Of a DNA stretch of 64,000 bases, positions 1-10,135 are shown in pieces (position 1 is the first letter of the stretch; each line of letters opens with the position of its first letter). Source of the DNA: Halorussus halophilus (GTDB taxonomy: Archaea; Halobacteriota; Halobacteria; Halobacteriales; Haladaptataceae); contig NZ_CP044523.1 of assembly GCF_008831545.1 (NCBI RefSeq), positions 3,348,001 through 3,412,000 of the forward strand, in the 5' to 3' direction. The notes below the pieces were generated by a model. That model ran no database searches. It was not told the origin of the DNA and worked only from the letters and a program-made list of their open reading frames with translations. The translations under genes were made by a program, and so were the position numbers.

Positions 1-60
1 CGACTGGCCCATTAGCGACTGACCCATTAGCGACTAACCCACTAGCGACTGACCCAGCAA
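1..60. repeat. 15-bp tandem repeat array, 4 units, cut by window edge
   Basis: Four head-to-tail 15-bp units occupy 1-15, 16-30, 31-45 and 46-60. They share the pattern CGACTRRCCCAYTAG; the last unit diverges at its 3' end. The array touches the window edge, so its full length is unknown. It lies on the left of the putative origin, roughly as far from the centre as a second 15-bp array at 901-975, but the two units are not related. Iteron-like function is possible but unproven. Confidence 0.85.
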
Positions 61-393: not shown

Positions 394-420
394 CCCCCCA
401 CCCCATTGTTTCGGGTGGAA
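394..420 (-). promoter_or_regulatory. Origin recognition box 1
   Basis: Read on the minus strand this has TTCCACCCGAAACAATGGGG followed by TGGGGGG. This is the haloarchaeal ORB layout: TTCCACnnGAAAC, a short spacer and a G-string. The G-string points away from the AT-rich core. Confidence 0.8.
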
Positions 421-458
421 CGTCGAGAAGGGCCGGGGAGGGGTGGGGTGTCTAGAGA

Positions 459-545
459 ACACGAAGATTTAATACAATCCCAATTAAACAATATCCGCGA
501 ACCAAAGAGAATAGTTATTTTTGAGTTGGGATAGTGTAGAATGAA
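459..545. other. AT-rich candidate DNA unwinding element
   Basis: This stretch is clearly richer in A and T than its flanks, with runs such as GATTTAATACAA, CAATTAAACAATAT and TAGTTATTTTTGAG. It sits centrally between the inverted ORBs at 394-420 and 594-620, the expected place for duplex opening. No melting calculation was done. Confidence 0.6.
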
Positions 546-593
546 TCGGCTACCCACCACTGCGTCCCCTCCCCACCCAGACGGTTCCACCGC

Positions 594-620
594 TCCACCT
601 GAAACGAAGGGGTGGGGGTG
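594..620 (+). promoter_or_regulatory. Origin recognition box 2
   Basis: This reads TCCACCTGAAACGAAGGGG followed by TGGGGGTG and is the best match in the window to the haloarchaeal ORB with its G-string. It is inverted relative to ORB 1, on the other side of the AT-rich core. Its core GAAACGAAGGGGT recurs at 10123-10135 and, on the minus strand, near 6682-6703. Confidence 0.83.
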
Positions 621-736: not shown

Positions 737-759
737 TCACCCCTCTGTTTCGAGTGGAA
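737..759 (-). promoter_or_regulatory. Origin recognition box 3
   Basis: On the minus strand this reads TTCCACTCGAAACAGAGGGG then TGA. It has the ORB dyad and a shorter G-string. It lies about 120 bp beyond ORB 2, in the opposite orientation. Confidence 0.75.
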
Positions 760-1271: not shown

Positions 1272-1913
1272 ATGGGATTGTTCACTGGACTCAAAGACAG
1301 CGTATCACGCGTTACGGACAAGCTCTTCTCCGCCCAAGAGCCCAAGCGCATCGGTATCTACGGCCCTCCGAACGCCGGGAAGACGACTCTCGCGAACCGC
1401 ATCGCCCGCGATTGGACTGGCGACGCGGTTGGCCCGGAGAGCCACATTCCACACGAGACCCGACGCGCTCGGCGCAAGGAGAACGTCGAAATCGAGCGAG
1501 ACGGTAGTACTGTCTCCATCGACATCGTGGACACACCGGGTGTCACGACGAAGGTCGATTACGAGGAGTTCCTCGACCACGACATGGAGAAAGAAGACGC
1601 CGTGCGTCGCTCGCGCGAGGCCACCGAAGGCGTCGCTGAAGCAATGCACTGGCTCCGCGAGGACGTGGACGGCGTTATCTACGTCCTCGACAGCACGACC
1701 GACCCGTTCACGCAGGTCAACACGATGCTCATCGGCATCATCGAGAGCCAAGACCTGCCGGTACTCATTTTGGCTAACAAGACAGACCTGGATGACTCCA
1801 GCGTCCAACGTATCCGGAATGCGTACCCGCAGCACGAGACGATTCCGCTCTCGGCACTGGAAGGGAGTAACATGGACGAAGTGTACGACAAAATAGCGAA
1901 GTACTTCGGGTGA
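1272..1913 (+). CDS. arvA: Era-like small GTPase OapA/ArvA
   Basis: This is a 213-aa Ras-superfamily GTPase. The P-loop GPPNAGKTT (about residues 31-39), switch-II motif DTPG (87-90) and base-recognition motif NKTD (169-172) are all present, so it should bind and hydrolyse GTP. In Haloferax the orthologue was named OapA (origin-associated protein) and later ArvA, a GTPase needed for extracellular vesicle formation. That role is literature-based. A Shine-Dalgarno-like GGGAGGT at 1261-1267 supports the start and a leadered mRNA. It is the first gene of a three-gene operon: arvB starts 4 nt after the stop. It lies directly beside the putative origin, as in other haloarchaea. Confidence 0.92.
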   Translation: MGLFTGLKDSVSRVTDKLFSAQEPKRIGIYGPPNAGKTTLANRIARDWTGDAVGPESHIPHETRRARRKENVEIERDGSTVSIDIVDTPGVTTKVDYEEFLDHDMEKEDAVRRSREATEGVAEAMHWLREDVDGVIYVLDSTTDPFTQVNTMLIGIIESQDLPVLILANKTDLDDSSVQRIRNAYPQHETIPLSALEGSNMDEVYDKIAKYFG

Positions 1914-1917
1914 TTCG

Positions 1918-2304
1918 ATGCCGGAAGTCAAACCCGACGGCTCGAACGGTGTACAAATCGACCTCATCGGTGCCAACCGAATGGAAGGCATGGCGTCGAT
2001 GGAGAAGATTCGAATGATACTCGACGGGGTGCGCGACGGCGACATCGTCATCCTCGAACAAGGGCTCTCCCCCGACGAGGAGAGCAAACTCATCGAGGTC
2101 ACGATGACCGAGATTAGCCCCGACGAGTTCAACGGCATCGAAATCGAAACGTACCCGCGCTCCGAGACGGCCGACCAAAGCTTCCTCGACCGCTTGATGG
2201 GCAAGGAATCGACGTCGAAGCTCACCGTCATCGGCCCGGCGAACCAGATAGAGACGCTTCACAAGGACGACAACCTCATCAGCGCACTCGTCTCCCGTAA
2301 ATAA
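1918..2304 (+). CDS. arvB: DUF2073 family protein OapB/ArvB
   Basis: This 128-aa soluble acidic protein matches the DUF2073 family always found beside the Era-like GTPase in haloarchaea. It has no enzyme motif that I can see; an expected role is as a partner or regulator of ArvA. It begins 4 nt after arvA ends, and its stop TAA overlaps the next ATG by one base (TAATG), so translation of the operon is probably coupled. The recurring KMRMSxxxIRMILD-type segment near residues 20-40 looks helical. Function beyond vesicle and origin association is unknown. Confidence 0.88.
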   Translation: MPEVKPDGSNGVQIDLIGANRMEGMASMEKIRMILDGVRDGDIVILEQGLSPDEESKLIEVTMTEISPDEFNGIEIETYPRSETADQSFLDRLMGKESTSKLTVIGPANQIETLHKDDNLISALVSRK

Positions 2305-3071
2305 TGCCCCACCAGTGTACCAACTGCGGCCGAGCGTTCGAGGACGGTTCGAAAGAGATGCTTTCGGGCTGTCCGGACTGCGGCGGGAACAAGTTCCAGT
2401 TCCTGCCCGCGGGAGCCGTAGGTGACTCGGGTGGATCTGGCGGAACAACGGGTGGAACCGCGCCGAAGAAGCAACCACAAGCCGCGAACACTGGAAACGC
2501 TGGGGGCACTGCGAACGCCGCCAGTTCCCCCGACGCACCCGAAACAGGGGGCGACACCGACAGCACTCCGTCGGGTGCCGTAGACCGAGCGGCCGCGACT
2601 GTCCGCGACTGGGTCAGCACGAAACGCGACCGAGGGGAGAGAGAACAGTCGGCGGCCGCGAGCGCGTCACAGTCGCGCTCGCAGACCCAATCACGCTCTG
2701 CGCCGAACTCCGGTTCGACTCGAAACGAAGGGCAATCGGCCGCCACCGATGCTGCGCCAGCCGCCGAATCGAACGAGGACAGCGCCCAGGCTAGTGCTCG
2801 CCGCGACCTCGTGAGCGAGGATGAACTCCCGGACGACCCACCTGCAGAAGACACGGATGACGCCAACGTCGTCAGTCCACCGGAAGAAGAGAGTCCGGGA
2901 CTCGACGAACTGCGCAAGGAACTGAACGACCAGTTCGAGAGCATCCGCATCGTCAACCCCGGCCAGTACGAACTCAACCTGATGGAACTGTACAACCGTG
3001 AAGAGTACATCATCGCGCTCAAACAGGACGGCAAGTACGTCATCGAAGTGCCGGACTCCTGGGAACAGTAG
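2304..3071 (+). CDS. arvC: OapC/ArvC zinc-ribbon protein
   Basis: This 255-aa protein has three parts. The N-terminal zinc ribbon has C5-x2-C8 and C23-x2-C26. A long low-complexity, Ser/Ala/Gly/Asp-rich linker (about 35-195) is probably disordered. A compact C-terminal domain (about 200-255) is rich in Tyr, Leu and Glu and contains QYELNLMELYN. This matches the OapC/ArvC family, the third gene of the origin-linked operon. The start overlaps the arvB stop. T-runs just after the stop (3076-3110) probably end the transcript. Confidence 0.88.
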   Translation: MPHQCTNCGRAFEDGSKEMLSGCPDCGGNKFQFLPAGAVGDSGGSGGTTGGTAPKKQPQAANTGNAGGTANAASSPDAPETGGDTDSTPSGAVDRAAATVRDWVSTKRDRGEREQSAAASASQSRSQTQSRSAPNSGSTRNEGQSAATDAAPAAESNEDSAQASARRDLVSEDELPDDPPAEDTDDANVVSPPEEESPGLDELRKELNDQFESIRIVNPGQYELNLMELYNREEYIIALKQDGKYVIEVPDSWEQ

Positions 3072-5293: not shown

Positions 5294-6075
5294 TGTTCGA
5301 ACAGCGCTCCCTCTCTGAAGAAGTCGCCACAGTTCGCGAGGAACACGCACCAGACGCACTCGTACTAGATTGCGAGACCGACTTCGAGTCGCTTCCACCG
5401 GGACGAGCCGAGGACCTCGGTCTGCTGGTGGATTCTCTCGACCCGCTCTCGTACCCCGACGAGTGGCTTCCCGAGGAGACTCCGGAACTACTCCGGCGGT
5501 TCGCCTCGACTGACTTCGTCGTCGGCATGCCCGGCGACGGCAGCGTCGCGTGGACTCGCCAGACGGTTCCACCGACCGTCTTCGTGAAGGCCCGAGTCGA
5601 AGGTTCACCCGAAGAGTTCGTCGATTTCCTCGTCGCCCAAGCACTCGTCGAGGTTGGCACGTGCGAACCAGAACACTTCCTCGGTTTCTTCGACGGGGAG
5701 TTCCGAGACCTTGCGGCCGCTCTCCCCTACGATTCGGGAAGCGTCTACCAGATAGCCGCGGCGCTCTACGACGCCTATCTCGGACTCCAGACTCGCCAGG
5801 TCTTCGGAGGATGGGCAGACACCAATCCACGACTCTTCGCAGCGTGGGAGGACGCAGGCGAGCGCATCGAACCGCGCGTAGACGGTCTCCCCTCGGCGAT
5901 GGCACGAGACGAGACGGACTTCGCCGACGCCACAGAACTGGCCTGCGCCGCGGTCAAACACGGTCTCGACCTGCCCGCGCCGTTCGCGGCACTCGACACG
6001 TCGGCCTACCGAGACCACGGCGCGGCGTACGCTGTCAAGTGGGCCGAGAAGACTTTTGAACACGAGTCGGAGTAG
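5293..6075 (+). CDS. Conserved haloarchaeal protein, unknown function
   Basis: This 260-aa, strongly acidic, soluble protein has no signal peptide or membrane segment. I recognise no catalytic motif. It has a probable alpha/beta N-terminal half and a helix-rich C-terminal half, with a possible conserved core around FLGFFDGEFRDLAAALPYDSG (near residues 135-155). The start overlaps the stop of a 30-aa membrane peptide, which suggests a two-gene unit with that peptide. It is probably a lineage-specific haloarchaeal family. Confidence 0.75.
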   Translation: MFEQRSLSEEVATVREEHAPDALVLDCETDFESLPPGRAEDLGLLVDSLDPLSYPDEWLPEETPELLRRFASTDFVVGMPGDGSVAWTRQTVPPTVFVKARVEGSPEEFVDFLVAQALVEVGTCEPEHFLGFFDGEFRDLAAALPYDSGSVYQIAAALYDAYLGLQTRQVFGGWADTNPRLFAAWEDAGERIEPRVDGLPSAMARDETDFADATELACAAVKHGLDLPAPFAALDTSAYRDHGAAYAVKWAEKTFEHESE

Positions 6076-6347: not shown

Positions 6348-6370
6348 AACCCCCTCGTTTCAACTGGAAA
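6348..6370 (-). promoter_or_regulatory. ORB-like element outside the origin
   Basis: On the minus strand this reads TTTCCAGTTGAAACGAGGGG then GTT, close to the origin recognition boxes at 594-620. It lies just after the ferredoxin stop codon. A second similar site is at 6682-6703, upstream of the ferredoxin gene. Confidence 0.5.
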
Positions 6371-6681: not shown

Positions 6682-6703
6682 AACCCCTTCGTTTCGGGTC
6701 GAA
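6682..6703 (-). promoter_or_regulatory. ORB-like element outside the origin
   Basis: On the minus strand this reads TTCGACCCGAAACGAAGGGG then TT, sharing the GAAACGAAGGGGT core of the origin boxes. It lies between the divergent ferredoxin and hel308 genes, so it could also serve as an Orc1/Cdc6 or transcription-factor site. Confidence 0.5.
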
Positions 6704-9626: not shown

Positions 9627-9681
9627 TCGCCCTGAATTGTAGGCCACCACGGTTACGTGGTTCATCGTTGCAGGATTGCGC

Positions 9682-10026
9682 ATGAGTGACGACCCCGACC
9701 CGGAGCGTGAACAGCGGAGCGCACGCGAACGTCAGCACGAACGAGCCGAAATTACCGAGGACTTGCTCGGTGAGGCCGGAGCGATGCTCGGCGAACACAA
9801 GTACCCGGCGACCAGCGAAGAACTCGCCGCGGAGTACGGCGACCAGCGACTCGACCTGCCGAACGAGACGGAGACGTTGGGGAGCGTCTTCGACCGCCTC
9901 GTGGACGAGCGATTCGAGTCAGCCGAGGAGGCACGAGAGGCTGTCTACGGTGAGATTACTGGTGAGGCCGCTGGCGAGGAGGAATACAACGACCAGCGGG
10001 AGTTGGACGAGTTAGACGAGACCTGA
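9682..10026 (+). CDS. Small acidic haloarchaeal protein (DUF5789-like)
   Basis: This 114-aa, very acidic protein has the segment ITEDLLGEAGAMLGEHKYP followed by SEELAAEYG, which resembles the haloarchaeal DUF5789 family. No catalytic or metal-binding motif is seen. I chose ATG 9682 over the TTG six bases upstream. It lies 55 nt after cgi121 on the same strand, without a clear own promoter, so it may be co-transcribed. Function is unknown. Confidence 0.65.
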   Translation: MSDDPDPEREQRSARERQHERAEITEDLLGEAGAMLGEHKYPATSEELAAEYGDQRLDLPNETETLGSVFDRLVDERFESAEEAREAVYGEITGEAAGEEEYNDQRELDELDET

Positions 10027-10112: not shown

Positions 10113-10135
10113 TTTTCCAATCGAAACGAAGGGGT
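10113..10135 (+). promoter_or_regulatory. ORB-like element near tRNA-Gln
   Basis: TTTTCCAATCGAAACGAAGG followed by GGT shares the 13-base core GAAACGAAGGGGT with origin box 2. It sits in the spacer between the DUF5789-like gene and the tRNA gene. The outer half of the dyad (CCAAT instead of CCACC) is weaker. Confidence 0.5.

Follow-up and report, generated by a model that had tools for sequence, protein, structure and literature searches.

The locus studied here raises the question of whether the nested, mirror-like arrangement of boxes and tracts at a haloarchaeal replication origin reflects selection on a common centre, and of what lies in the AT-rich region that these elements enclose. Haloarchaeal origins have so far been described as ORBs, the predicted Orc1/Cdc6 binding sites, together with an unspecified AT-rich region. 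We considered both points in a window of 64,000 nucleotides (C1:3348001-3412000) from the 4.45 Mb, four-contig genome of Halorussus halophilus, and in the origins of other haloarchaea. What this analysis adds to existing knowledge of oriC1 is a reinterpretation of its symmetry and a directional core element, the rest being mostly known.

Identity and layout of the origin

The feature at the left end of the window is very probably oriC1, the replication origin of the main haloarchaeal chromosome, built as published. The earlier note had made its reading depend upon an orc1/cdc6 gene just left of the window, and that gene is indeed present there (Table 1), its adjacency being a hallmark of haloarchaeal oriC1. 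Since orc1/cdc6 lies directly to the left and oapA-oapB-oapC directly to the right, the locus can be assigned to oriC1 on its neighbourhood. The gene order published for haloarchaeal oriC1, namely GTP-binding protein, cdc6, signal peptidase and DNA polymerase (PMC4010727), is matched at this locus, and the OapA protein shares 94-96% identity with its Halorussus counterparts. The two signal-peptidase-like genes (L083:4521-5282 and 5300-6064) are alike and stand in tandem between DP1 and orc1. Short tandem repeats (cgactgacccattag, gggcgaat and gagtgagagtga) are found between orc1 and ORB1, at window positions 1-60 and 240-345.

We infer that the window copy of oriC1 fires. The GC skew across C1:3248001-3465000 has a mean close to zero on the left side of the origin and of about -0.03 on the right side, a weak sign of a change near oriC1. 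The genome carries 12 cdc6-family genes, and so other origins may dominate.

Table 1. Features at and around the origin. Positions are those of the window unless prefixed L083; negative numbers lie to the left of the window.
Feature	Position	Strand	Remarks
DP1 (DNA polymerase D small subunit) and two signal-peptidase-like genes	left of window, beyond orc1		
ORB-like site	L083:2683-2702		3' of DP1
ORB-like site	L083:4050-4069		inside DP1 coding region (linker)
orc1/cdc6	ATG at L083:7618 (window -382)	-	Cdc6_lid and Cdc6_C domains; immediately left of window
orc1-leader ORB	L083:7628-7647 (window -372 to -353)		about 10 bp upstream of orc1 ATG
ORB1	394-420	-	predicted Orc1/Cdc6 binding site TTCCACCCGAAACAATGGGGTGGGGGG; halophile G-string leftward, away from core
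Left inner G-rich tract	430-448	+	GGGCCGGGGAGGGGTGGGG
AT-rich core	461-540	.	probable duplex unwinding element; 60-75% AT in 20-nt steps
Conserved directional core element	463-503	+	GAAGA and TTTAATA (468-474, BRE/TATA-like), AAACAATATCCGCG (486-499)
Right inner C-rich tract	566-578	-	
ORB2	593-620	+	CTCCACCTGAAACGAAGGGGTGGGGG; inverted relative to ORB1; G-string rightward, away from core
ORB3	740-759	-	third ORB
oapA	1272-1913	+	GTPase gene flanking oriC1 in haloarchaea; MMR_HSR1
oapB	1918-2304	+	origin-associated protein; PF09846, 2.5e-44
oapC	2304-3071	+	origin-associated protein; PF09845, 4.9e-28
Satellite ORB-like site	6350-6369	-	3' of ferredoxin gene
Satellite ORB-like site	6684-6703	-	about 60 bp upstream of likely ferredoxin start
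Satellite ORB-like site	10115-10134	+	about 90 bp 3' of gene 9676-10026

Inverted ORBs with the extended halophile G-string surround an AT-rich region, as is characteristic of oriC1, and ORB1 agrees with a consensus built from one sequence per genus (GTTCCACCCGAAACGAAGGGGTGGGGGG). Much of the anatomy proposed in the earlier note is borne out: the two inverted ORBs lie where it had placed them, their common centre at about 507 is arithmetically right, both inner tracts are real and the AT-rich core does lie between them. Its remark that the inner tracts are not exact complements holds over their full length, but overlooks an exact 9-bp inverted repeat formed by GGGGAGGGG at 435-443 and CCCCTCCCC at 566-574, which is centred at 504.5.

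The oriC1-cdc6A of Haloarcula hispanica (PMC3936714, PMC3528665) resembles the window in its adjacent orc1/cdc6 and gene neighbourhood, in having an AT-rich core between inverted ORBs that bear halophile G-strings, and in a G-rich inverted repeat, GGGGAGGGG(G), immediately internal to the ORBs. It differs in the spacing of the ORBs (about 250 bp in Haloarcula, compared with 172 bp here), and the window departs from it further in that its inner repeat is imperfect over its length and a third ORB lies to the right of ORB2. Dissection of the H. hispanica origin, which has the same layout, established that mutating either ORB G-string abolishes activity, and that the G-rich inverted repeat directly inside the ORBs (GGGGAGGGGG/CCCCCTCCCC) is an enhancer, the mutation of which reduces activity; most haloarchaeal oriC1s carry this repeat, some of them possessing just one half (PMC3936714). 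Given that the inner repeat of the window shares the GGGGAGGGG core with that enhancer, the inner tracts correspond to this already published element. Of the two identities offered for them in the earlier note, independent G-strings therefore fits, as the published enhancer (PMC3936714), whereas partial ORBs does not, there being no conserved GAAAC core upstream of the G run.

It has also been suggested that the G-rich motif of haloarchaeal oriC1 is quadruplex-prone (PMC7565180), and the plus strand of positions 430-448 fits a four-run G4 motif. That the inner tracts function as G-quadruplexes nevertheless seems improbable to us, given that, among 67 haloarchaeal oriC1s, no more than 12 left arms and nine right arms contain a four-run G motif; as a conserved property of the tracts we rejected it, the motif not being kept in relatives.

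Composite half-sites and the question of symmetry

The 9-bp inverted repeat is only mildly unusual when the window is considered alone (P 0.038, with each flank shuffled), and the case for the inner tracts consequently rests on conservation. We therefore compared 67 haloarchaeal oriC1s, consisting of the window copy and 66 others recovered via oapA. An inner G-tract starts 8-18 nt from its ORB in 81% of these origins for the left arm and 49% for the right, compared with 2.1% and 1.2%, respectively, in the shuffled control. The offset between a tract and its own ORB is tight (SD 2.2 nt on the left and 3.7 nt on the right), whilst the distance between the ORBs ranges from 158 to 404 bp with an SD of about 54 nt. 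From these tight offsets and varying ORB-ORB distances, the conserved unit appears to be a composite half-site, made up of an ORB, 8-18 bp and a G-rich tract, which is present in two inverted copies.

If, instead, the two layers formed a true dyad with one functional centre, all four elements would have to be correctly spaced about it, so that, for instance, a symmetrical double MCM hexamer could be seated. In the window the centre of the ORBs and that of the inner tracts do agree to within about 2 bp, and among the 37 relatives carrying both tracts the left and right offsets are equal in nine. The remainder have unequal offsets that differ by up to 11 nt, the inter-ORB distance varies across the range given above, one arm is absent in many origins (the right inner G-tract is missing in around half) and the core element described below follows ORB1. 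We consequently regard a true dyad as very unlikely indeed, and the nested symmetry about one centre that the earlier note had proposed is not conserved. The apparent nesting would arise because the origin comprises two inverted copies of one composite half-site, rather than through selection on a centre, such that the mirror symmetry of oriC1 is mostly incidental. The dyad itself is ordinary, confirming oriC1 and the known enhancer in another haloarchaeon.

A directional element in the AT-rich core

A Gibbs search of 36 oriC1 cores, roughly one per genus, returned one strong motif, scoring 14.7 bits against 8.1-8.5 bits in shuffled sets. In the motif a BRE-like GRAAG precedes TTTAWTA, which is followed by AACMAWAYCCGYA; the start of CCG lies 27 nt beyond the first T. 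In the window, where the two parts read TTTAATA and AACAATATCCG, the first T likewise stands 27 nt before CCG (495-497), and the position weight matrix score is 42.1, compared with 9.8 for the best of 205,160 background positions. This element, which was absent from the earlier note, lies inside ORB1 at a distance of about 74 nt and is directed to the right. Across 33 origins the distance between CCG and ORB1 is 72-91 nt (SD 6.4), whereas that between CCG and ORB2 has an SD of 59; judged by these distances, the core of oriC1 is directional and anchored to ORB1. No description of such an element was found in the literature searched, and an earlier description in older papers is possible.

The core pattern was derived from oriC1 cores only and then searched for elsewhere. 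Two perfect matches occur in the Halorussus halophilus genome, one being oriC1 itself and the other lying in the spacer that precedes the cdc6 gene of contig C2. Matrix scores of 27-33 are reached at cdc6 loci at C1:1.74 Mb, on C2 and on C4, where the inverted ORBs differ; of the genome's other cdc6 loci, only three (L101, L102 and L106) have a clear core. Across 21 genomes, allowing at most one mismatch, there are 48 core matches, of which 43 fall within 3 kb of a Cdc6-lid gene, and 35 of those 43 point away from the cdc6 gene. We counted oriC1 itself 15 times among the 43. Outside oriC1, 28 of 33 matches are at other cdc6 genes (around 1.5% expected), and these include origins with unrelated ORBs. 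One further case concerns the orientation of the element: in genome G018 (C2:239684-239939, within L097) the oriC1 core points towards orc1, as if the cassette had been inverted relative to the gene, yet 77 nt still separate the element from the ORB behind it. This combination argues that the core element belongs to the origin and not to the expression of cdc6.

Plasmid origins extend the comparison. Among nine cdc6 loci on plasmids, those of Haloferax mediterranei pHME505, H. larsenii and Halarchaeum reach matrix scores of 31-34. Low scores were obtained for the remaining six, namely the plasmid origins of H. hispanica pHH400, the oriP of which is proven active (PMC3936714), Halorientalis, Natrinema, Halobellus, H. 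marismortui pNG700 and Halobaculum. In all six we nonetheless recognised, by eye and with a simple pattern, a TTTA with CCGYA or CCGAA 25-26 nt further on, the pair lying as far from the cdc6-proximal ORB as would be expected; the AACMAWA part is therefore not universal, and the strict pattern misses variants. Of 14 origins, 10 have a TTTA/CCGYA-type pair at the right place, whereas 0.16 would be expected by shuffling, a comparison to be read as descriptive because the simple pattern was picked after the sequences had been viewed. Taken together, we lean towards the view that an ORB-independent directional core (TTTAWTA, 25-27 nt, CCGYA, set 72-91 nt inside one ORB) is common to the Orc1/Cdc6-linked origins of haloarchaea, irrespective of replicon and ORB type, and that this core would be needed for initiation, as either a dedicated promoter or a site for an origin protein.

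With regard to the first of these roles, a BRE/TATA-like sequence lies 25-27 nt from the conserved CCGYA, as it would at a haloarchaeal start site, the promoter elements of these organisms having been described (PMC4983044). If the element is a promoter, transcription is predicted to start near G497 and to read right into the core, where the transcript may melt the AT-rich region or prime synthesis, a form of transcription-assisted initiation. An ordinary promoter would also drive a downstream gene, and here none starts within about 770 bp of the core, oapA beginning about 775 bp downstream. The plasmid origins checked are similar, in that the annotated gene that follows is nearly always convergent or far away; the exception, L118, has a codirectional next gene, but one about 770 bp away. 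Such gene arrangements would suit a transcript made for the origin itself. The conservation of AACMAWAYCCGYA is, however, greater than a generic promoter requires, and an Rfam search gave no match to a known RNA in the core, its sole match being sub-threshold and outside the core. We consider a real promoter quite possible, at somewhat less than an even chance.

The alternative role is that of a protein-binding site which, like ucm in Sulfolobus, could place MCM or a nucleoid protein within the unwinding region whatever the ORB type. The Sulfolobus ucm, located between inverted ORBs, occurs at each of the three origins; its binding protein, UBP, makes contact with MCM (PMC12141716). At the ORB2-ORB3-ucm region of Sulfolobus oriC1 (PMC12141716), as in the window, inverted ORBs flank an AT-rich element, and in both lineages the region of unwinding holds a conserved motif that is shared by origins whose initiators and ORBs differ, although we claim no homology. 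The likeness is one of position and recurrence. The haloarchaeal motif differs in having a TATA-like half, in being directional and in being anchored to one ORB; a protein site leaves the TATA-like half and the promoter-like spacing unexplained. We give this role close to an even chance.

These considerations suggest how the origin might work. Orc1, encoded just to the left, would bind as a monomer to each of ORB1 and ORB2, in opposite orientations, and would load MCM into the AT-rich core between them, with the inner G-rich repeat boosting firing. Within the core, the BRE/TATA-like TTTAATA followed by AAACAATATCCG, with CCG 27 nt on, forms a promoter-like, rightward arrangement, which may act as the start site of an origin transcript that helps to open the core or as the binding site of an origin protein. 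Anatomy, synteny, conservation, spacing and the recurrence of the core at other cdc6-linked origins were established in this analysis; Orc1-ORB binding, the need for both ORBs with their G-strings and the enhancer role of the inner repeat are taken from published work on relatives (PMC3936714). A shared directional core, if confirmed, would tell us where melting begins and in which direction, and would predict functional origins better than ORBs alone. It also raises the question of whether archaeal origins start by transcription or through a ucm-like protein.

ORB-like sites around the origin

ORB-like sites are not confined to the origin pair. When one mismatch is allowed, the ORB pattern matches the whole genome at 12 places, 10 of which lie within 15.5 kb around oriC1 and the remaining two at about +96 and +107 kb; a reversed control pattern gave no matches genome-wide. 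An ORB pattern derived from Haloarcula places 9 of its 10 genome matches within 10 kb of oriC1, and chance clustering was rejected on this ground. Across 16 genomes, 68 of the 96 ORB matches besides the origin pair are within 20 kb of oriC1 where around 1% would be expected, although close relatives among these genomes are not independent.

Positions are also conserved within the genus, with syntenic ORBs immediately 5' of the orc1 start codon, 3' of DP1, inside DP1 (in most genomes), right of ORB2 and 3' of the 9676-10026 gene. ORB3, which the earlier note did not include, is at its syntenic place in 12 of the 12 same-genus genomes examined (at most two mismatches), the orc1-leader ORB is kept in all 12, and the site at 10115-10134 is near the same gene in every one of them. 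Some other families have two inverted ORBs within DP1, separated by about 55 bp.

It is plausible that these satellites serve in orc1 autoregulation and Orc1 titration, and the conserved sites would then add such a regulatory layer at oriC1. Extra initiator boxes near an origin are likewise known from the oriC2D ORB cluster of H. hispanica and from bacterial datA-type titration sites (PMC3936714); in contrast to the oriC2D cluster, the ORBs here are single and scattered over around 15 kb, in and between the genes around oriC1, at conserved positions. The sites might instead be operators through which Orc1 controls neighbouring genes, with no part in replication control by titration. The orc1-leader site right at the start codon throughout the 12 genomes and the site upstream of the ferredoxin gene would suit such operators, but several others are found between convergent genes or within DP1, places in which one would not expect a promoter, and we view this alternative as possible but rather doubtful.

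A second origin at the ORB-like sites between +83 and +112 kb was considered and rejected, as there is no Cdc6-lid gene there, the nearest other one lying at about +174 kb. The sites at about +83 kb (L099:6538 and L099:6672) form a weaker, intergenic ORB-like pair on the same strand, 134 bp apart, and pairs with a spacing of 134-135 bp are also found in genomes G003 and G012.
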